Virus record (IMG/VR): IMGVR_UViG_3300032334_000357
Coordinates: 1-21,373 of that record
Reading direction: 5' to 3' (one strand)
Length of the DNA: 21,373 nucleotides
Origin: a virus
A program made the translations under genes and the position numbers. Under the pieces are notes generated by a model that had not been told where the DNA came from, made no database searches, and saw only the letters and a program-made list of their open reading frames with translations. Numbering within the stretch: the first letter of the stretch is position 1; each line of letters opens with the position of its first letter. Shown in pieces: positions 4,901 through 18,724 of the stretch.

Positions 4901-5797
4901 TTATGCTGCTACTTCTGTCCAAACGACAGATTGTCCAGTATTTACAGGAGCCCATGCACCTACATATAATTGACCAGTTGTTCCTGTCAAGCTGTTTCCA
5001 GTTACACTTGCAATTACATCTAATTTAGTTGCTACTGAATTTAAAGATAATGTAGCTAAATTAGTTGTTAAATTTACAGGTGTATTTAAATTTATAGTTA
5101 CACTATTTAATGAAGTAGTTAATTGTTGACCGGTTACAAGCGTAGCAACAGCTATATCTATGTCTACGCTACCTAATGTAGTAGTTAGTTGTATTCCTGT
5201 TACTTCAGCATCAGGAGCAGGATCTATTGTACCTAAAGTTGATGTCAGTTGTTGTCCTGTTAATGAAACACTACCTGTTCCAGTTACAGTTTCATCTCCA
5301 AGAGATAATGTTAATTGTTGACCAGTAAGTGAAACAGATCCACTTATTATTTGTGATACAGAATTTAAAGAAGTTGTTAATTGTAATCCAGTTACGCTTA
5401 CAGGAGTTATTATATCAATTGTTGAATTTCCAACAAATGTAGATAGACCAATATTTTCGGCCCAAGCACCACTGCCCCAACTACTTGATCCCCATGTTGT
5501 AGGTGTCCCAGGAGCTTTTACTGGTACGTAAACAATTTCAAATGCGCTAACGCTATTTAAAGTTGAATTTACTAAATTTGTTGTAAGAGCCGTACTTCCT
5601 GTAATTGAAAAAGAAACATTATTATTTAATGAAGAACTTAATTGTTCTCCAGTTAAAGTAATTAAGGGACTACTTAAAATAGAAACATTATTTAAAACAG
5701 ATGTTAGGGATTGTCCTGTTACTAAAGCAATAGCATCATTTTCTCCACCGAACGCACCTGCACTCCAACTTAATGCACCCCAAGCTGTATTGGCCAT
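4901..5797 (-). CDS. Repeat-containing virion protein with WGxxxWxxGA motifs (298 aa)
   Basis: The protein consists largely of degenerate repeats of about 15-25 residues with the core (L/V)TGxQLTxxLxSV, seen around residues 26-38, 48-58, 135-147, 157-167, 178-189, 199-211 and 221-233, with more eroded copies at 71-83 and 243-255. Two tryptophan/glycine motifs (AWGALSWSAGAFG at 5-17 and TWGSSSWGSGAW at 101-112) and GAWAPVNTGQ near the end bracket the repeats. Such beta-rich repeats suggest a fibrous or tail-surface protein, likely trimeric. The position between neck genes and the fibre fits a tail spike, fibre base or tail-associated adhesin. An AGGAG ribosome site lies 11 bases before the ATG. 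The virion role is likely; the exact part is inferred. Confidence 0.8.
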   Translation of the reverse strand: MANTAWGALSWSAGAFGGENDAIALVTGQSLTSVLNNVSILSSPLITLTGEQLSSSLNNNVSFSITGSTALTTNLVNSTLNSVSAFEIVYVPVKAPGTPTTWGSSSWGSGAWAENIGLSTFVGNSTIDIITPVSVTGLQLTTSLNSVSQIISGSVSLTGQQLTLSLGDETVTGTGSVSLTGQQLTSTLGTIDPAPDAEVTGIQLTTTLGSVDIDIAVATLVTGQQLTTSLNSVTINLNTPVNLTTNLATLSLNSVATKLDVIASVTGNSLTGTTGQLYVGAWAPVNTGQSVVWTEVAA

Positions 5798-9777: not shown

Positions 9778-10683
9778 TTAAGCACCTGGTGAGCCAAACA
9801 TACCTCTAGGGTCAGACCAGCCGAAGCTGTATCTTTCTCTAGCTTTGTATCTAACGTTACCAGTATCAAAATCACCTTCCATAGACGTTTTGATAGCTGC
9901 TCTTACGAACATCTTCATTCCGTTTGGAACATCTGTTTTGATAAAGAATGCATCAGAATCAGTTAAGAAATTATTCACAGTATAACCTTGTGGAATCATT
10001 CCCATGTTTTTGATTGCATTGATATCGTTATTAGCAGTACCAGTTCTACCTTGAGACGCCATTAATCTGTCCGCAGTGAATTGTAACTCACTAGGGATAA
10101 TTAATTTAACACCTCTTGCAGCAATCTTTAAACCACGTTCATCAGTGAACGCATTGATATCAATCAATGACTGTTCTAATGAAGTTTCGTTTAAGTCCGC
10201 AGCAACTGCTAGTTTATTTCTAAATGAACCAGCAATAGTAGGATGGTCGGAAGCCAATAAAGGAGATCCGTCGCCACCTGGGTAACTAGTTGAAAACGCA
10301 TTATTAAGTACGTTAGCCGCAGTTACTTGCTTAGTGTTTGCCATAGATCTTGCTAAAGCCTTTGTATATCTAGACGCAAGTCTATCATACAAGTTATCTT
10401 CAATCGCTTCTTCAGTGATTGAGAAAGCAAGCGCTATAGTGTTATGTGTATATCTAGCAGTGAAAGTTTCTTGAGCATTGTCAAAAGTCACTCCAGAACC
10501 TTCTGGCTTAACTTGAGCATTTGCGAAACCTGATAACATAACTTCTTCTTCAAAAGCTCTGTCAGAAGTTTCAGTGTCAAAAATTTCAACATGCTGATTT
10601 TCATAACGTTTGTACTCCAGGCCGAATAGTGCATTCAATCCTGGTTCTAGTTCTTTAACTAGTTGTCCTCTTGATATAGCCAT
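9778..10683 (-). CDS. Major capsid protein, gpT-like (301 aa)
   Basis: The protein matches the Mu gpT-like major head subunit layout: LEPGLNALFGLEYKRYENQH (residues 12-31) at the N-terminus, a middle helix with AIEDNLYDRLASRYTKALAR (92-111) and MANTKQVTAANVLNNAF, a loop SPLLASDHPT, then KLIIPSELQFTADRLMASQG and a C-terminal beta region ending in SFGWSDPRGMFGSPGA. The length of about 300 aa fits the HK97-fold family without a fused protease. It follows the scaffold and two associated proteins, has an AGGAG ribosome site, and is followed by a hairpin. Codon use looks less A/T-biased than the accessory genes, as expected of a highly expressed gene. Confidence 0.92.
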   Translation of the reverse strand: MAISRGQLVKELEPGLNALFGLEYKRYENQHVEIFDTETSDRAFEEEVMLSGFANAQVKPEGSGVTFDNAQETFTARYTHNTIALAFSITEEAIEDNLYDRLASRYTKALARSMANTKQVTAANVLNNAFSTSYPGGDGSPLLASDHPTIAGSFRNKLAVAADLNETSLEQSLIDINAFTDERGLKIAARGVKLIIPSELQFTADRLMASQGRTGTANNDINAIKNMGMIPQGYTVNNFLTDSDAFFIKTDVPNGMKMFVRAAIKTSMEGDFDTGNVRYKARERYSFGWSDPRGMFGSPGA

Positions 10684-12805: not shown

Positions 12806-13276
12806 TTATATATAGTGAAGTACATCTTCAGGATTTTTAATTGTCCCTAAGACTTCATCGTCATTTAATAGACGAACTTCACCGCCTTCAATTGGAAGTC
12901 TTGAACCCGCATAACGAGCAAAGATCACCCAATCTTTTTCCTTGCACCAAGGGCCTGTTGGATATTTTTCTTTATCCAAATAAGCTAATGGTCCAATCTT
13001 TAAAACATAACCGCAATTAGTTGCGATCCTTGCTTTGTCTAAAGATTCCTGTGATATAATTAATCCACCTGCAGTTTTATCTTTAGGTGTAAATGGTAAT
13101 ACTAATAACCTCCAACCAGATGGTTGTGGTAAATTATCAATTAAAGATTCAGTAATATTTTCTGCTCTTACTGTTTTATCTTCAACTTTTTTATCTTCTT
13201 CTTTATATTTTTCCTCAAGACCTAGGTTTATCTTTGGTACTTCCTTTTCCGATGTCAACAACGTTTCCTTTATCAT
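12806..13276 (-). CDS. GroES-like co-chaperonin (156 aa)
   Basis: The Cpn10 fold is clear from about residue 50: QPSGWRLLVLPFTP, the GroEL-binding mobile loop KDKTAGGLII (65-74), GYVLKIGPLAYLD, WVIFARYAGSRLPIEG and EVRLLNDDEVLGTI. A charged N-terminal extension of about 50 residues, rich in Glu and Lys, precedes it. I set the start at 13276 because AAGGAG lies 8 bases before that ATG, whereas an upstream in-frame ATG (13294) would put the ribosome site inside the coding frame. It lies just before the scaffold and capsid genes. Like T4 gp31 it probably replaces host GroES on host GroEL to fold capsid or other virion proteins. Confidence 0.9.
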   Translation of the reverse strand: MIKETLLTSEKEVPKINLGLEEKYKEEDKKVEDKTVRAENITESLIDNLPQPSGWRLLVLPFTPKDKTAGGLIISQESLDKARIATNCGYVLKIGPLAYLDKEKYPTGPWCKEKDWVIFARYAGSRLPIEGGEVRLLNDDEVLGTIKNPEDVLHYI

Positions 13277-13466
13277 CTTTTCGCTCCTTTTCATTTAGCA
13301 GGTTAGAGATTTCCTGAATTACTGTTTGATAGGCATTTGCCTGTCCTTGCATATACTTGTATTTTTCCATATTGTCAACATTACCAGATATCATGGCATC
13401 ACCAATACCTTGGTATTGCTCCCTAATAAACTTTTGTAATTTGCTTAAAAACGTAACTGCATCCAT
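13215..13466 (-). CDS. Small helical phage protein (83 aa)
   Basis: An all-helical 83-residue protein: LSKLQKFIREQYQGIGDAMI (residues 7-26), SGNVDNMEKYKYMQGQANAY, then VIQEISNLLNEKE. The pattern FL..LQ..IR......DA..SG.VDN.E.Y....GQ is one I recall from small proteins encoded among phage head genes. It has a strong AAAGGAG ribosome site and its 3' end overlaps the GroES gene by 62 bases in another frame. The GroES ribosome site is inside this overlap, so the two are probably translationally coupled. Function unknown. Confidence 0.78.
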   Translation of the reverse strand: MDAVTFLSKLQKFIREQYQGIGDAMISGNVDNMEKYKYMQGQANAYQTVIQEISNLLNEKERKDDKGNVVDIGKGSTKDKPRS

Positions 13467-13489: not shown

Positions 13490-13822
13490 TTAACAATTCC
13501 ACTTACGTAAAGATTTATTAATCCTTGAATTAGGATCTCTTGCCGTCTTAGCTGATGTTAATTTTTTTTTCATGCCTTTCATTCTAGCACAAAATGATTT
13601 TCTTCTTTTAGCAGATTTAGAACCTGGTTTCAACTTACTAGGTTTAGTAGTTACTGCCATTGATAATTTTGATCCTGGATTTGCAGCTCTATAAGATGCA
13701 ATACCTTTTTTATTTAATCCACCTGATTCAGATTTACCTTCTTTACGTTGCCATGCTGGTGTTGATCCTGATGCAAATTTACGTCTTACAATACCTTGTC
13801 CTCTTAAAGAAATATCACCCAT
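13490..13822 (-). CDS. DUF6321-like basic protein (110 aa)
   Basis: The conserved core is visible: TPAWQRKEGKSESGGLNKKG (residues 21-40), YRAANPGSKLSMAV, KSAKRRKSFCARMKGMKKKL (73-92) and the terminal SRINKSLRKWNC. This matches, from memory, the DUF6321 family of small lysine/arginine-rich proteins of marine phages and giant viruses. The N-terminus SLRGQGIVRRKF repeats the RGxGx(A/V) theme seen in neighbouring small genes. The strong basic charge suggests nucleic-acid binding, perhaps in the virion; that is inference. Confidence 0.82.
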   Translation of the reverse strand: MGDISLRGQGIVRRKFASGSTPAWQRKEGKSESGGLNKKGIASYRAANPGSKLSMAVTTKPSKLKPGSKSAKRRKSFCARMKGMKKKLTSAKTARDPNSRINKSLRKWNC

Positions 13823-13823
13823 A

Positions 13824-14066
13824 TTAATACATCTTAGTTCTTTTAGTTTTAATAACTTTTCCTTGTCCTCTACTTACTAATCCACCTTCTGCATAATGTT
13901 CAACTGGATTATATTCTCTTGTTGAATCTTCAGGATGTAATGAATTTAAATATTCAAATGCAGATTCTTCATCTGTCATTTCTTTGTATTTTTTATTCAT
14001 TTCTTCTTCAGATTTTTTAAATCTAGCTTGTCTTGCTCGTTCTTCTTTGTAATATTTATTACTCAT
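13824..14066 (-). CDS. Small charged protein with shared C-terminal tail motif (80 aa)
   Basis: The body is a charged helix (KEERARQARFKKSEEEMNKK, then EMTDEESAFEYLNSLHPED). The C-terminus, GGLVSRGQGKVIKTKRTKMY, resembles the tails of two other small proteins in this run. It starts with an ATGA overlap on the upstream gene, with GGAGG just before it. No known family or function. The tail could be a docking or packaging signal. Confidence 0.78.
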   Translation of the reverse strand: MSNKYYKEERARQARFKKSEEEMNKKYKEMTDEESAFEYLNSLHPEDSTREYNPVEHYAEGGLVSRGQGKVIKTKRTKMY

Positions 14067-14338
14067 ACTAATCCTCCAGATCTCATATCTTTTCTATTTG
14101 TAAATGTTGCAACATTTTTAGGTTTAGGTCCAGTGTTTCCTGCAGCTCTTTTTCTTGCAACTGCTGAACGTCTTTGACCTTCTGACATTGATCTAGCTTT
14201 AGCTAATGGAACACATTTTGGATAGCCTTTTCTTTTTTCTCCTTTTGATCTTCCACAAGGAGCATAAGATCCATCTTTTCTTTTAGATCCAATATCTACC
14301 CATTTTTCTGCAACCCATTTTCTAAGACCATTTGCCAT
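14063..14338 (-). CDS. DUF5872-like small basic protein (91 aa)
   Basis: MANGLRKWVAEKWVDIGSKR at the start, GSYAPCGRSKGEKRKGYPKC (residues 23-42), VPLAKARSMSEGQRRSAVAR and KRAAGNTGPKPKNVATF follow the pattern of DUF5872-type proteins found in marine phages and large DNA viruses. I chose the ATG at 14338: a longer frame from 14476 exists, but its first 46 codons lie inside the preceding gene in another frame and do not resemble this family. Two cysteines (C28, C42) could bind metal or form a disulfide. The protein is strongly basic; function unknown, likely virion- or DNA-associated. Confidence 0.82.
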   Translation of the reverse strand: MANGLRKWVAEKWVDIGSKRKDGSYAPCGRSKGEKRKGYPKCVPLAKARSMSEGQRRSAVARKRAAGNTGPKPKNVATFTNRKDMRSGGLV

Positions 14339-14339
14339 G

Positions 14340-14591
14340 TTAATATTTTTTAGTAACCTTTCTTCTATCTTCCATAACAGCTCCACAACCTTTGGCAACA
14401 CCACCTTGTTTATAATTGGATACCATTTTTCTTTGTTGTGAAATACTTCCACCCATAGCTTTTTTCTTACGTCCACCTGGAACTATTTTTCCAGAACAAA
14501 CTGCTGAAGCATACATATTTGCATATGCGCTTGGATAAACTTTAAATTTTCTTTTAGCCGCTGCTTTTCCTTTTGGACAAAGTTTAGCCAT
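14340..14591 (-). CDS. Small basic Cys-containing protein with shared tail motif (83 aa)
   Basis: The N-terminus LCPKGKAAAKRKFKVYPSAY followed by ANMYASAVCSG (residues 4-34) is a recurrent marine-phage pattern. The C-terminus GGVAKGCGAVMEDRRKVTKK plus a final Tyr resembles the tails of the 80-aa and 123-aa proteins nearby. It starts by a TAATG coupling with the upstream gene. The charge is strongly positive. Function unknown; a minor virion or nucleoid protein is plausible. Confidence 0.82.
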   Translation of the reverse strand: MAKLCPKGKAAAKRKFKVYPSAYANMYASAVCSGKIVPGGRKKKAMGGSISQQRKMVSNYKQGGVAKGCGAVMEDRRKVTKKY

Positions 14592-14935
14592 TAATAACCT
14601 CTTTTTGCAACTTTTGGAAAACCTTTTATTAATCCACCTTTTGCTTTTTTAACCATTTTTCCAGATGAAGTTTCTCTATATCCCTTTTTCTCTAATCTTG
14701 TTTCTTTGGATTCCATTTTTTTGGCTTCTTTACTTTCATGTGCCATTGATTCATCTTTTGCTTTTTTCTTAATCATTCCACCCTTAGCTTTTCCATCTCT
14801 CTCTTTTAATTTTTCAAGGAGTAAAGGATCTTCTAATTGTTTTTTAAAGTCTTCCAAATCTTTTTTTTGCTGTTCTTCTAGTTTTCTTCCAGCAGGTCCT
14901 CTTAATCTAATTCCATCCCCACCGAAATCAGCCAT
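14591..14935 (-). CDS. Lys/Glu-rich small protein (114 aa)
   Basis: A highly charged helical protein: LEEQQKKDLEDFKKQLEDPL, then LLEKLKERDGKAKGG, and a Lys/Glu/Met-rich middle (SMAHESKEAKKMESKETRLE). The C-terminus KAKGGLIKGFPKVAKRGY again shows a Gly-Gly/Lys-Gly basic theme, and the start contains IRLRGPAGRK. It starts by TAATG coupling. No family recognised. Low-complexity basic/acidic character suggests a disordered nucleic-acid- or protein-binding role. Confidence 0.75.
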   Translation of the reverse strand: MADFGGDGIRLRGPAGRKLEEQQKKDLEDFKKQLEDPLLLEKLKERDGKAKGGMIKKKAKDESMAHESKEAKKMESKETRLEKKGYRETSSGKMVKKAKGGLIKGFPKVAKRGY

Positions 14936-15246
14936 TACTTCATTCCTTTTAAGGTCATAGCTAATCTAGCACGTTTACCAGTTACTCCTGATTTTTTTGC
15001 TGCAGCTTTTAATTTAGACATTGGTATTTTTTCACCTTTTTTAACTTTTAGAGTAGCTCTTAAAGAACCAGGTTTTTTAATTGCTGATTGAATCCATTTA
15101 GATCCACCATCTTTAAAAACACCTCTTCCTTTTAAAATATCAGCTTTAGTTATTTTCCCATCTTTATTTAAATCTGGAAAAGAACCTCTTGCTAAACCAA
15201 CTCTTGCAATACCAGTTCCTCTTTTTTGTATTCCAAGTCCAGCCAT
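14935..15246 (-). CDS. Small virion-type protein with an EF-hand/dockerin-like loop (103 aa)
   Basis: Residues 25-36 read DLNKDGKITKAD, with Asp/Asn/Asp at positions 1, 3 and 5, Gly at 6, Ile at 8, Thr at 9 and Asp at 12: a full canonical calcium-binding loop of the EF-hand/dockerin kind. The second half (WIQSAIKKPGSLRATLKVKK, GEKIPMSKLKAAAKKSG, GKRARLAMTLKG) is a pattern shared by small proteins of marine phages. The N-terminus QKRGTGIARVGLARG has the RGxGxA theme. TAATG coupling on both sides. Calcium-dependent folding or attachment is likely; the partner is unknown. Confidence 0.82.
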   Translation of the reverse strand: MAGLGIQKRGTGIARVGLARGSFPDLNKDGKITKADILKGRGVFKDGGSKWIQSAIKKPGSLRATLKVKKGEKIPMSKLKAAAKKSGVTGKRARLAMTLKGMK

Positions 15247-15416
15247 TATCTTTTTCCCTTCATCATTTTGCCTTTTTTCTTCATAGGCATATCTTTAGTC
15301 ATCATATCTGCTTTTTTAACTTTGCCACCTTTTTTAAAAGCAGCTCCTATACCTTTAACTGCTATTCCACCACCTTTAAAAGCAGGTCTTGGTCTTTGTT
15401 TATAATCGTTTCTCAT
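15246..15416 (-). CDS. Very small Lys/Gly/Met-rich protein (56 aa)
   Basis: I translated this by hand. ATG at 15416 lies 6 bases after a TAAGGAG ribosome site at the end of the holin-like gene, and the stop TAA overlaps the next start (TAATG). The protein begins MRNDYKQRPRPAFKGGGIAV, continues KGIGAAFKKGGKVKKADM and ends in a Lys/Met-rich tail. The basic Gly-Gly/Lys-Gly theme places it with the surrounding small proteins. Function unknown; the ribosome site and perfect coupling argue for a real gene. Confidence 0.8.
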   Translation of the reverse strand: MRNDYKQRPRPAFKGGGIAVKGIGAAFKKGGKVKKADMMTKDMPMKKKGKMMKGKR

Positions 15417-15425
15417 TTTTTCTCC

Positions 15426-15851
15426 TTAACCATTTTCTTGGTTGTTTGTCGGCTTGTTAGACATCGTTCTTGCAACCGACTCTGCTGAACGACCAATCAC
15501 ATATCCGCCAAGTCCAACATTTAATAATGTCCAAACATCGCCGGGTAACTCAAAGGTTATAACTGCACCCATGAATACTTTAATAACAGGTCCAATAACA
15601 TAATTCCATACCAATATAAAGATTAAAACATACATTAATAGAGGTCTCCAAGAAGATGCAAACCATCCAGCCTTTGCTTCAGCTTCAATAATTCTTGATG
15701 CTGCTTGTAATTCTTGTGTATGAGATTGTAATAACTGAGTTTGCAGTTGTGCTTTTAATTTTTCTTGAAGATCTTTATCAGGAACTGCTTTTTCAATTGT
15801 ATTAAATAAAATTTTAGCGAGAGGAGCAATAGCACCTAGCATTGGTAACAT
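15426..15851 (-). CDS. 3TM-type holin-like membrane protein (141 aa)
   Basis: An amphipathic N-terminal helix (residues 5-22), an Asp/Lys/Gln-rich coiled region (25-60), then SSWRPLLMYVLIFILVWNYV (66-85), which begins transmembrane segment one (about 70-93), and DVWTLLNVGLGGYVIGRSAE (105-124), segment two. The WRP motif at the membrane edge and the GGYVxGRS element are typical of the GTA holin/3TM family (PF11351-like). It would form pores in the inner membrane late in infection. Unusually it lies among head genes, and no endolysin is in the window, so a role in virion DNA ejection is a second option. It starts three bases after the upstream stop. Confidence 0.82.
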   Translation of the reverse strand: MLPMLGAIAPLAKILFNTIEKAVPDKDLQEKLKAQLQTQLLQSHTQELQAASRIIEAEAKAGWFASSWRPLLMYVLIFILVWNYVIGPVIKVFMGAVITFELPGDVWTLLNVGLGGYVIGRSAESVARTMSNKPTNNQENG

Positions 15852-15854
15852 GAT

Positions 15855-16226
15855 TTAAAACCACTTAGCTGATCTTCTTTTTTCTGAAAGAATACTTCCT
15901 TGACCTTGTACTTCTTGAATTTGTGTTTCTGAATTGCTTGACATCTCAACATCAACTCCACCAACTAAATATCCTTGAGAGTCAGTAAATTTTGAATGAT
16001 CAACTTCTTTTATTTTTGAAGCTGGAGAAAATGTTTTAGTTGAATTAGCTAAACCGCCTACTGCCATTTTTTTTCTAGACATTCCTGCTTCAGATAAAGC
16101 AATAGCGATTGCTTGTTTAGGATTTTTTACTTTTTTAGAAGATCCGCCAATGTTAAGTTCGCCTTTTTTGAACTGTCTCATTACTTTACTGATCTTTTTT
16201 TGTTTTGAATTCATTTTCATAGCCAT
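15855..16226 (-). CDS. DUF6496-like small basic protein with shared tail motif (123 aa)
   Basis: Residues 10-55 (KKISKVMRQFKKGELNIGGS, then KVKNPKQAIAIALSEAGMSR) match, from memory, the DUF6496 family, a short lysine-rich helical domain common in phages. The C-terminal part is Ser/Gln-rich and ends in VQGQGSILSEKRRSAKWF, which resembles the tails of the 83-aa and 80-aa proteins downstream. It has an AAGGAG ribosome site and starts the small-gene run just after the portal. Function unknown; DNA or capsid binding is suggested by charge. Confidence 0.82.
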   Translation of the reverse strand: MAMKMNSKQKKISKVMRQFKKGELNIGGSSKKVKNPKQAIAIALSEAGMSRKKMAVGGLANSTKTFSPASKIKEVDHSKFTDSQGYLVGGVDVEMSSNSETQIQEVQGQGSILSEKRRSAKWF

Positions 16227-16258: not shown

Positions 16259-18724
16259 TTATTGTATTTTTTTATTTGTATTAGAAAAATGTTGTTTTGC
16301 AATAGATGTTGCTGCTCTTAATTCAGCCAAATCTTCATTTTGTTGCAGTTTTTCTTGTGTATTCATCTGATTCATCATGGCTCTCATCTTATCTAGATTG
16401 ATTCTTTGCTCACCTTCTTGTTTTTTTCTAGCATTTTCTTGAGCCTGTAAGTCTAACTCTCTGGCTTTTAATGCAGCTATAGGATCATTATCAAATTGTG
16501 ATGTAATTTTCTTTTCTTCATCCATAAATTCACCCATCATTTCAGCAATTAGAATTGCTTTTCTAGATTCTAACTTCATTTGAAACTGTTGTACCTGTGC
16601 TTGTACTTGTGGACTTTGTAAAGCTTGAGGATTTTGAGACATCATTTGTATTTGTTGTAACTCTTGTGCAAATTCTAATTCAACTTGTTCTAAAGCCATT
16701 AAAGAAATATGTTCAAATATATTTTTCTCTAATGATCCAACTATCATAGGATTATTTTTTGCAATGTTAGTAGACATAAAACTTAAATGTGCAGTAATGT
16801 GAGCTCTATGATCTTGTCCTCTGAATGCTTGAAATGGTTGTCCACCTAATGCATCAATATGTTCTAATGCAGGATCTTTAGGCATTGGTTTTGCAGGTTG
16901 AATTAAAATCTTATCAATATCTTTTACACCTAATGCTTCATACATCTTTCTATAAATTTCATACAAGTTATGAATTTGTGGATTAGATTGAGCAAGTTGT
17001 AATTCAGTTTGTGCTAAACTAATTCTTTGTGTTTGAGAAAATATATTTGGATCAGCAACTGGAACGATATCTATTCTATCATCAAAGTCTGCTTGTTTAA
17101 TATTTTTTTGTCCACCAACAACATCATATGGATATTCATTTGGTAGATATAATTTAAATACTCTAGATAATAATTTGAATTCTTGTTTTAGTGATGAGTA
17201 TAATCGTTTATGAATAGCAGACATTGTTCTGCTTCCTCTTTCAAGTAAAGCTACAGTTGTACCAACAGCTGCTTGTTGATTACCATCACCTACTTGCATA
17301 TCAGCAATAGATGCAAATCTTTGACCAGCAGAAACAACTACACCCATTAATTGTAATAAAGTTTGAGAAGGTTCTTTGTATGGTAAAGTCATAAATGCAT
17401 CTCTAAGGTTTCCACCTGGAGCATCTACATCTCTCCATTCACCTGGCTGAATAGATTGAGCATCATCTCTAATTCTAATACCACGCATTTTAAATCCTGC
17501 TGGTAAGTTAGATAAAGTTCCTGCATCAATTAATTGTCTAAGTGCAGAAGTTGCAGTTCTAGATAATCCACCAATCATATGGATTAATCCAAAACCATAA
17601 AATCCTAAACCTGGTAAGAATTTAAAGTGTATAAAATATTGAATCTTATTTTTTTTAGGATCACCTATTTCGTAGTTTCTACGAATAGATAGAATTTCAC
17701 GAGAGCCTTCTTCTATCGTCACAATATAAGGAAGTTTAATTCCAGTCATTTCCCCGTTGGGATCACGATCTTCAAAGCCCTCGAGATCTAAGTTTACATG
17801 ACATTCAATTAAAGTAAAGATATCTTCGTAACCTGATTTAGTTATTCCTTCAATTTCTCTTTCTTTTGATTTTACATCATCAGCTTCTGTTGTTGAATCA
17901 TCACTTGGTAGTAAATCTAAATCTCTATAGAATCCACCTACTTGTTGTTTTCTTAGTTCATTTCCAGAAATTTTTAATACATGCATTATAGCTTCAGCAT
18001 CATCTAATGATGTTGCTGAGTATGGAACAACTAAATCTTCTGCTGGAACAAATTTAGATACAGCTCTTCCAAGTAAATCATCATAATAAACTTTTTTAAA
18101 TGTTGATCCTGATAATGGTAAATAAAATAACATAGTATCAAACTCTGGTTCATATTCTTTCATGACATCCATAATTTGATAGTTCATAAAATCTTTAACA
18201 CGTGTTGCTTGATCTTCTTTTTCTCTAGAAGAGTTTCCAATAATTTGAGTTCTAACAGGTCCGTCTGCTGGTAATAATTCTTTATAAGCTAATGCTTGAA
18301 ATTGTGTTACTGCTTCTGCAAGAACAGGATGTGTTGCACCCGATGCACCTTGGAATGGTTCTGTTCTTTGATCATATTTAAATCCAAGTAGATCCAAACC
18401 CTGAGTATAAGTTTGCTCCCAATCTTGTCTTGAATTTTTGTAATCTAAATAGTTTTGATAAAGTTCTGAACCTAATTGTCCTAAAATATTTTCTGGTAAT
18501 AATTCTGCTAAGTTGTCAAAATGGTTTACACTTTCACCAGCGCTAAATGCACCTGGATCAAAATTAATTTCAACGCCACCATCTGCTGTTGGTGTAACTT
18601 CTGTATTTCCTACACTTGGAATAGACTCTTGAACATCTACAATCTCTTCTGTTGCAGCTGCAGGATTTTCTATCTCAATTGTATTTCTAACTTCGTTTGG
18701 TAGTGACTTGTCTATTGTTGCCAT
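16259..18724 (-). CDS. Portal protein (821 aa)
   Basis: A long P22-like or T7-like portal of the type common in marine podoviruses: NLAELLPENILGQLGSELYQ (residues 71-90), DWEQTYTQGLDLLGFKYDQR (101-120), a THPVLAEAVTQFQALAYKEL segment (131-150), LPADGPVRTQIIG, then the wing and stem region with FKKVYYDDLLGRAVSKFVPA and the barrel region. The last ~180 residues are Gln-rich coiled coil (QVQAQVQQFQMKLESRK). It forms the dodecameric DNA channel at one capsid vertex and docks the terminase. CGGAG ribosome site 8 bases before the ATG. It lies directly after TerL, the acidic protein and the 46-aa gene. Confidence 0.92.
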   Translation of the reverse strand: MATIDKSLPNEVRNTIEIENPAAATEEIVDVQESIPSVGNTEVTPTADGGVEINFDPGAFSAGESVNHFDNLAELLPENILGQLGSELYQNYLDYKNSRQDWEQTYTQGLDLLGFKYDQRTEPFQGASGATHPVLAEAVTQFQALAYKELLPADGPVRTQIIGNSSREKEDQATRVKDFMNYQIMDVMKEYEPEFDTMLFYLPLSGSTFKKVYYDDLLGRAVSKFVPAEDLVVPYSATSLDDAEAIMHVLKISGNELRKQQVGGFYRDLDLLPSDDSTTEADDVKSKEREIEGITKSGYEDIFTLIECHVNLDLEGFEDRDPNGEMTGIKLPYIVTIEEGSREILSIRRNYEIGDPKKNKIQYFIHFKFLPGLGFYGFGLIHMIGGLSRTATSALRQLIDAGTLSNLPAGFKMRGIRIRDDAQSIQPGEWRDVDAPGGNLRDAFMTLPYKEPSQTLLQLMGVVVSAGQRFASIADMQVGDGNQQAAVGTTVALLERGSRTMSAIHKRLYSSLKQEFKLLSRVFKLYLPNEYPYDVVGGQKNIKQADFDDRIDIVPVADPNIFSQTQRISLAQTELQLAQSNPQIHNLYEIYRKMYEALGVKDIDKILIQPAKPMPKDPALEHIDALGGQPFQAFRGQDHRAHITAHLSFMSTNIAKNNPMIVGSLEKNIFEHISLMALEQVELEFAQELQQIQMMSQNPQALQSPQVQAQVQQFQMKLESRKAILIAEMMGEFMDEEKKITSQFDNDPIAALKARELDLQAQENARKKQEGEQRINLDKMRAMMNQMNTQEKLQQNEDLAELRAATSIAKQHFSNTNKKIQ

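Follow-up and report, generated by a model that had tools for sequence, protein, structure and literature searches.

Four of the small proteins encoded between the portal and GroES-like co-chaperonin genes of IMG/VR virus record IMGVR_UViG_3300032334_000357, a 21,373-base fragment of an HTVC023P/027P-like podophage (the window), end in short tails that recur on otherwise different protein bodies. The tail phenomenon is real, and larger than reported in an earlier note on this DNA. The suggestion made there, that the tail is a transferable tag, is strongly supported by its terminal position, by the many bodies found per tail and by the several tails found per body, and is also backed by a switch of endings at a fixed GG point and by saturated synonymous change.

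Tails in the window and their terminal position

All three related basic tails claimed at the outset were confirmed by translation on the minus strand, on proteins of 83, 80 and 123 amino acids (aa). Tail A closes the 83-aa protein (14340-14591; KGCGAVMEDRRKVTKKY-stop), tail B the 80-aa protein (13824-14066; RGQGKVIKTKRTKMY-stop) and tail C the 123-aa protein (15855-16226; VQGQGSILSEKRRSAKWF-stop), while a fourth tail of a different class (D) ends the product of 14591-14935. Tails A and C share an exact 16-residue register, G[CQ]Gx[VI][ML]x[END][KR][KR][KR]x[TA]Kx[YF]; tail B, two residues shorter, does not fit the literal pattern first proposed for the tails. After column permutation the in-register cross-scores were never reached (A on C, 0/5000; C on A, 0/3000), nor were the observed scores of A on B and C on B (0/2000 in each case).

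The occurrence of the motif was examined among 562 basic open reading frames (ORFs; at least 18% lysine plus arginine) from the window and 80 loci fetched by their portal alone. It forms the exact C-terminus of 34 of these ORFs and is internal in none, and a terminal motif arose neither in 200 full shuffles nor in 1000 confined to the last 30 residues. Given these counts, the motif is not an artefact of composition and the C-terminal excess holds; chance in basic low-complexity proteins is ruled out by the shuffles together with the register permutations.

Class A is the commonest tail, and the C-terminal motif search proposed in the earlier note was run for it on IMG/VR with the pattern GCGxVMx[ND]RRKxTK. 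The resulting set pools two patterns, one without a stop codon and an earlier one in which the stop was required, and counts from IMG/VR retrievals, here and below, are lower bounds that refer to the matches listed. At least 142 distinct sequences were recovered; all 142 listed end no more than 9 residues before the stop, 111 of them with the stop exactly 2 residues on. Matches to the class A profile in the portal-only loci end at most 3 residues from the C-terminus (13/13), every one of 17 matches to profile D lies 0-1 residues from the end, and terminal behavior was alike in profile searches for classes A, B, D, E and F.

All four third bases are used where the tails have their fixed Gly, Val and Thr. 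With four-fold sites saturated and the residues nonetheless fixed, selection acts on the protein. Some fixed positions of class A are imposed by the search pattern, yet its Cys is nearly universal even in the stop-requiring pattern, where it was not imposed. The same synonymous saturation rules out a DNA-level element such as a recombination or packaging site. Mimicry of the GroES mobile loop, with which the tails have GG plus a hydrophobic residue in common, was dropped, as GG is not kept in all class A tails.

The observation of related (R/K)GxGx(A/V) sequences near N-termini was also right: the product of 13490-13822 opens MGDISLRGQGIV and that of 14935-15246 opens MAGLGIQKRGTGIARV. In the window alone RGxG shows a modest excess (7 against 2.6 expected; 71/5000 shuffles). 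Two N-terminal modules, MGDISLRGxG.. and MAGLGxQxRGxGIARV, are common to different bodies (DUF6321, EF-hand-like and DUF6496-like), with examples in these two window genes, in L103:474-1051 and in L163:12898-13161, so that shuffling affects these genes at either end.

Combination of bodies and tails

Bodies bearing tail A fall into about 19 clusters by single linkage, among the matches listed, with body charges from +0.33 to -0.025 per residue. In order to avoid retrieval bias toward tails, loci were also retrieved by body alone; tail classes were then assigned with hand-made, loose regular expressions, so that class counts are approximate. At least 59 homologues of the 80-aa body were found by this means, carrying tails B (35), A (19), D (4) and F (1), and no tail-less true homologue occurred among the 59 listed. 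The phrog_27331 body of the 83-aa protein carries A or A-like tails in 42 of the matches listed, H in 8, G in 6, K and J in 3 each, and is tail-less in 11. The phrog_23735 body ends in I (18), D (4), B (3), H (3), J (2) or a bare GG stub (21), 18 of the listed copies being tail-less, and classes H and J are thus seen on both phrog bodies. Besides the 114-aa protein of the window, tail D is carried by the 80-aa body and by fusions with phrog_23735. In HTVC023P, class E tails end both gp32 and gp51, the latter being homologous to the 83-aa protein, and HTVC027P has tail C on gp45. Plain poly-lysine is a frequent ending of the tail-less homologues that other phages encode. L152 and L106 have as two genes the DUF6496 and tail-C units that are joined in 15855-16226.

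A point of exchange is visible at the sequence GGLV. The phrog_23735 gene of the window terminates in SGGLV-stop, and the 80-aa gene that follows and overlaps it terminates in ..AEGGLVSRGQGKVIKTKRTKMY. L098 and L103 have no 80-aa body; there phrog_23735 runs on as GGLVSRGQGMVIKTKKTKVY, the whole of tail B following from GGLV, and the same fusion occurs in L161. Both states would be explained if a body had been either lost or inserted between two points with GGLV.

Such arrangements could also arise by mostly neutral module shuffling, in which short GG-flanked repeats recombine and the tails are hitch-hiking fragments with no common role. Micro-homology could lead to deletion or insertion through the GGNTTAGT-like sequence with which both the phrog_23735 gene and the 80-aa gene end, the N-terminal pieces are shuffled too, and tails can be missing. 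Selection is nevertheless argued for by synonymous saturation with fixed residues, by the single copy per genome and by confinement to the chain end, and 59/59 listed homologues of the 80-aa body have some tail class; we therefore consider neutral shuffling improbable.

Genomic context and distribution

Tail A occurs once per record in 19/19 matching records (7 to 69 kb), the reversed-pattern control giving zero. Some of 81 portal-to-GroES stretches are overlapping fetches of one contig and thus do not represent as many distinct phages; 80 of them hold tail A in 0 or 1 copies and one holds two, while tail C is present in 0 or 1 copies (the strict pattern once in 51/81) and tail B in up to 2. 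In loci with both neighbors, the median distance of tail A genes is 3.3 kb to the capsid gene and 1.3 kb to GroES. In a second arrangement (L126, L143, L203 and L214) the gene is close to phrog_3287, a structural protein that HTVC023P and HTVC027P have as well. One 69-kb record (L211) has a PF25209 capsid gene at each of two places separated by 59 kb (G008:C1:8935-9681 and 67822-68556); these are either paralogues or a product of redundancy at the contig ends.

For the two bodies compared, the tails are associated with one head lineage. The portal type of the window accompanies the phrog_27331 body in 18/19 tailed versus 0/11 tail-less records (Fisher p=2e-7), or 8/9 versus 0/5 when records have at least 13 kb (p=0.003), and the phrog_23735 body in 19/20 versus 7/16 (p=0.0017), the tailed group pooling all tail classes and, for phrog_23735, also bare GG stubs. 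The portal of one tail-less record is of the Head-tail_con family (PF12236), and in the cultured phages P-SCSP2 and HTVC106P the bodies are present without tails.

Carriers of the tails are mostly marine and freshwater phages. A bacterial origin of the tail was rejected, since the class A pattern is nearly absent from bacteria and archaea: 257 Gb of their genomes gave 3 matches, of which 2 lie on viral contigs that have a PF25209 capsid gene and the third is unplaced. A short-peptide tblastn of cultured phages, an insensitive search, recovered 023Pt_psg01 and DSL-LC04 only, the former being the sole phage-collection record found to carry tail A. Its phrog_27331 protein with tail A (L003:20961-21420) has no annotated feature under the tail. 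Searching cultured phages for tail E gave weak matches only, mostly to ribonucleotide reductase. DUF6321 occurs in 523 phage records, mostly of cyanophages; the small DUF6321, phrog_23735 and phrog_27331 proteins of marine phages have the same bodies as those of the window but, in most cultured relatives examined, are without tail A. In the T7-like cyanophage P-SCSP2 two different small proteins end RKSLRVA and RSSLKIA (L280:5001-5171 and 5429-5689), perhaps another common tail in another lineage.

It is improbable that the tails mark effectors, injected or made early, each binding a host protein and varying through host adaptation. Bodies and tails do vary greatly among close relatives, and the internal proteins of T4 are diverse inhibitors of host defence with a targeting sequence alone in common (PMC3012670). 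The genes, however, lie in the head module, from portal to capsid, and tail A does not differ between phages from many samples and with at least two gene arrangements.

Possible role of the tails in head assembly

The tails are tentatively interpreted as modular C-terminal docking peptides that place minor proteins in the (pro)head of the SU10-portal/PF25209 lineage, a plausible reading that falls somewhat short of probable. Each tail would bind the growing prohead surface (coat, scaffold or portal), and the protein that bears it, in most cases though not always small and basic, would thereby be built into the particle; new cargo would be recruited via recombination that sets a new body before the GG-x tail. 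The basic core and the near-terminal aromatic residue could bind an acidic coat or scaffold surface, as the basic scaffold C-terminus of P22 does. More doubtful is the extension to about ten docking peptide classes, each usually present once per genome and each with its own site on the particle, which would together form a modular virion addressing code.

Among the functions suggested previously, capsid loading is the best fit, on circumstantial grounds: the genes lie beside those of portal, capsid and co-chaperonin, and the tails are largely found in one head lineage, the bodies also being found tail-less elsewhere. The fit also draws on related body modules in a protein of cyanophage S-SCSM1 annotated as 'virion protein' (QFG06285, 517 aa; L284:2687-4240), in which regions judged by eye to be like phrog_23735 and phrog_27331 are joined to a DUF6321 end; these units, one protein in S-SCSM1, are three separate genes in the window. 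A report on this cyanophage gives 45 virion proteins by mass spectrometry (PMC9602691).

DNA binding remains a serious rival, even if we consider it unlikely on the whole. The tails would then be disordered DNA- or RNA-binding arms that neutralize packaged DNA or bind nucleic acid in infection, with no specific protein partner. Tail A has a mean net charge of about +6.8, many bodies are basic, and lysines of T4 internal proteins touch packaged DNA (PMC3012670). Against this, the strict G-C-G-x-V and x-T-K residues (their conservation being partly imposed by the pattern), the terminal position and the single copy exceed what charge needs, for which the poly-lysine ends of tail-less homologues would suffice.

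The T4 capsid-targeting sequence is N-terminal and is cleaved by the gp21 prohead protease in maturation. By analogy the tails could be C-terminal signals for protease recognition or degradation, likewise cleaved in maturation; no prohead protease was recognized among the scanned proteins of the window, which is a fragment genome, so that this part of the earlier proposal is unsupported and very improbable. In contrast to the T4 tag, classes A-F are C-terminal and multiple. If the tails are docking peptides, their action would be like that of the T4 sequence, yet C-terminal, apparently uncleaved and in several parallel classes. The likeness lies in the placing of one terminal sequence on several different bodies, T4 internal proteins being diverse, mostly small and basic, with only a short terminal prohead-core targeting sequence in common (PMC3012670).

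Encapsulin cargo-loading peptides, which are short and C-terminal, occur on unrelated cargo encoded near an HK97-fold shell gene (PMC7355545), as do the tails near theirs. They consist of about 10 residues that occupy a hydrophobic pocket inside the shell, whereas the tails have about 16-20 residues, are strongly basic and conserve a Cys in class A, and the shell here is a DNA-filled phage capsid with portal and terminase genes, not an encapsulin. In P22 the basic scaffolding C-terminus anchors to acidic coat residues in the procapsid (R293/K296 with D14/E15/E18; PMC9965877). Both cases indicate that C-termini can dock on HK97-fold shells (PMC7355545, PMC9965877). The coat-binding domain of P22 is, however, a folded helix-loop-helix of one scaffold protein, whereas the tails, modeled with low confidence, belong to many proteins and other genes.

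AlphaFold2 predicts for the 83-aa protein a small helical body (predicted local distance difference test, pLDDT, 70-80) and a linker that scores below 50, the tail itself being modeled as a weak helix; in a phrog_23735-like protein with tail A (L240), residues 65-126, tail included, fall below 50. Low confidence in the tail matches a disordered, partner-dependent peptide but could also be caused by the shallow alignments (26 and 23 sequences). A PDB search with the 83-aa protein found no relative. No family describing the tail as such appeared in the scans, phrog_32106 overlapping it weakly (E=0.009), and a literature search on the DUF names returned no description of the tail, its one match being DUF5872 in an algal-virus paper. 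The label 'DUF5872' for the phrog_23735 body was rejected as unsupported by Pfam.

Several points weigh against the docking interpretation. Virion proteomics for a tailed member was not found in the literature. Class A occurs once per genome, whereas a tag for loading in general might be carried by several proteins at once. Routes into the virion that are independent of tails must exist, given that related bodies are fused in the tail-less S-SCSM1 protein. The HTVC027P homologue of the 83-aa protein is without tail A, so that tails are dispensable or replaceable. The 7/16 tail-less phrog_23735 copies noted above sit in the same head lineage; in 2 of these 7 (contigs of L343 and L351) the phrog_27331 protein of the phage has an A or A-like tail. 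The PF25209 capsid protein is present in 9/9 records with tail A and a length of at least 40 kb, a figure without a random marine phage control, and the head-type association, uncorrected for common descent, is support rather than proof.

Gene map of the window

The terminase of the window is 69% identical to that of Pelagibacter phage HTVC027P. Its head set comprises an SU10-type portal, a PF25209 capsid protein, an SU10-type adaptor and the GroES-like co-chaperonin, together with a GTA-type holin. The portal-GroES interval contains nine small genes and a short 83-aa gene (13215-13466), four genes being tailed ( Table 1 ). Curated cut-offs are passed by the DUF6496 match of 15855-16226 (38.7 bits versus 24) and the DUF6321 match of 13490-13822 (65 versus 28.5). 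Pfam and PHROG scans gave no family for the 80-aa gene (13824..14066), whose body has a net charge of -2. The FPDLNKDGKITKADILKGRG stretch of 14935-15246 resembles an EF-hand/dockerin calcium loop, a module that recurs in these genes at related loci. Near the low-coordinate end of the window lies a 2OG-Fe(II) oxygenase (PF13640, E=2.5e-18; 1799-2368).

Table 1. Portal, capsid and small-gene features of the window.
Feature	Position	Strand	Basis and remarks
Portal protein, SU10 type	16259..18724	-	PF23899 E=1e-15, phrog_1216 E=2e-84; upstream boundary of small-gene run
DUF6496 (PF20106) joined to tail-C unit, 123 aa, post-portal	15855..16226	-	Pfam E=1.3e-9
Tail class C, VQGQGSILSEKRRSAKWF-COOH	15858..15911	-	Translation
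Holin GTA_holin_3TM, inside small-gene run	15426..15851	-	Pfam PF11351 E=2e-16
Basic 56-aa gene, KGGGIAVKGIGAAFKKGG internal	15246..15416	-	Sequence
103-aa gene: MAGLGIQKRGTGIARV N-terminal, EF-hand-like FPDLNKDGKITKADILKGRG, basic C-terminal part	14935..15246	-	Sequence; phrog_20603 weak
114-aa protein gene	14591..14935	-	Ends in tail class D
Tail class D, GGLIKGFPKVAKRGY-COOH	14594..14638	-	Profile D
83-aa gene: body MAKLCPKGKAAAKRKF..SGKI (phrog_27331) and tail A	14340..14591	-	PHROG E=8e-26
Tail class A, GGVAKGCGAVMEDRRKVTKKY-COOH	14343..14405	-	Translation; class A profile and pattern
91-aa gene, phrog_23735 body, bare stub SGGLV at end	14063..14338	-	PHROG E=1e-34
80-aa gene: charged near-neutral body (..EDSTREYNPVEHY) and tail B	13824..14066	-	Translation
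Tail class B, GGLVSRGQGKVIKTKRTKMY-COOH	13827..13886	-	Translation
DUF6321 gene, N-terminal module MGDISLRGQGIVRR	13490..13822	-	Pfam PF19846 E=1e-17
GroES-like co-chaperonin	12806..13294	-	PF00166 E=1e-7; downstream boundary of small-gene run
Major capsid protein	9778..10683	-	PF25209 E=7.5e-13

Implications

Terminal targeting tags as such are already known, and the combinatorial, multi-class C-terminal arrangement appears to be the new part. The swapping of ends at a fixed hinge makes protein evolution visible among close relatives. From the tag one can predict the orphan proteins that have a common fate. It also provides a way to test how proteins are loaded into phage heads, and it might be developed into a means of packaging proteins of choice. 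An addressing code of the kind considered here, if true, would let a phage lineage swap its cargo proteins freely.

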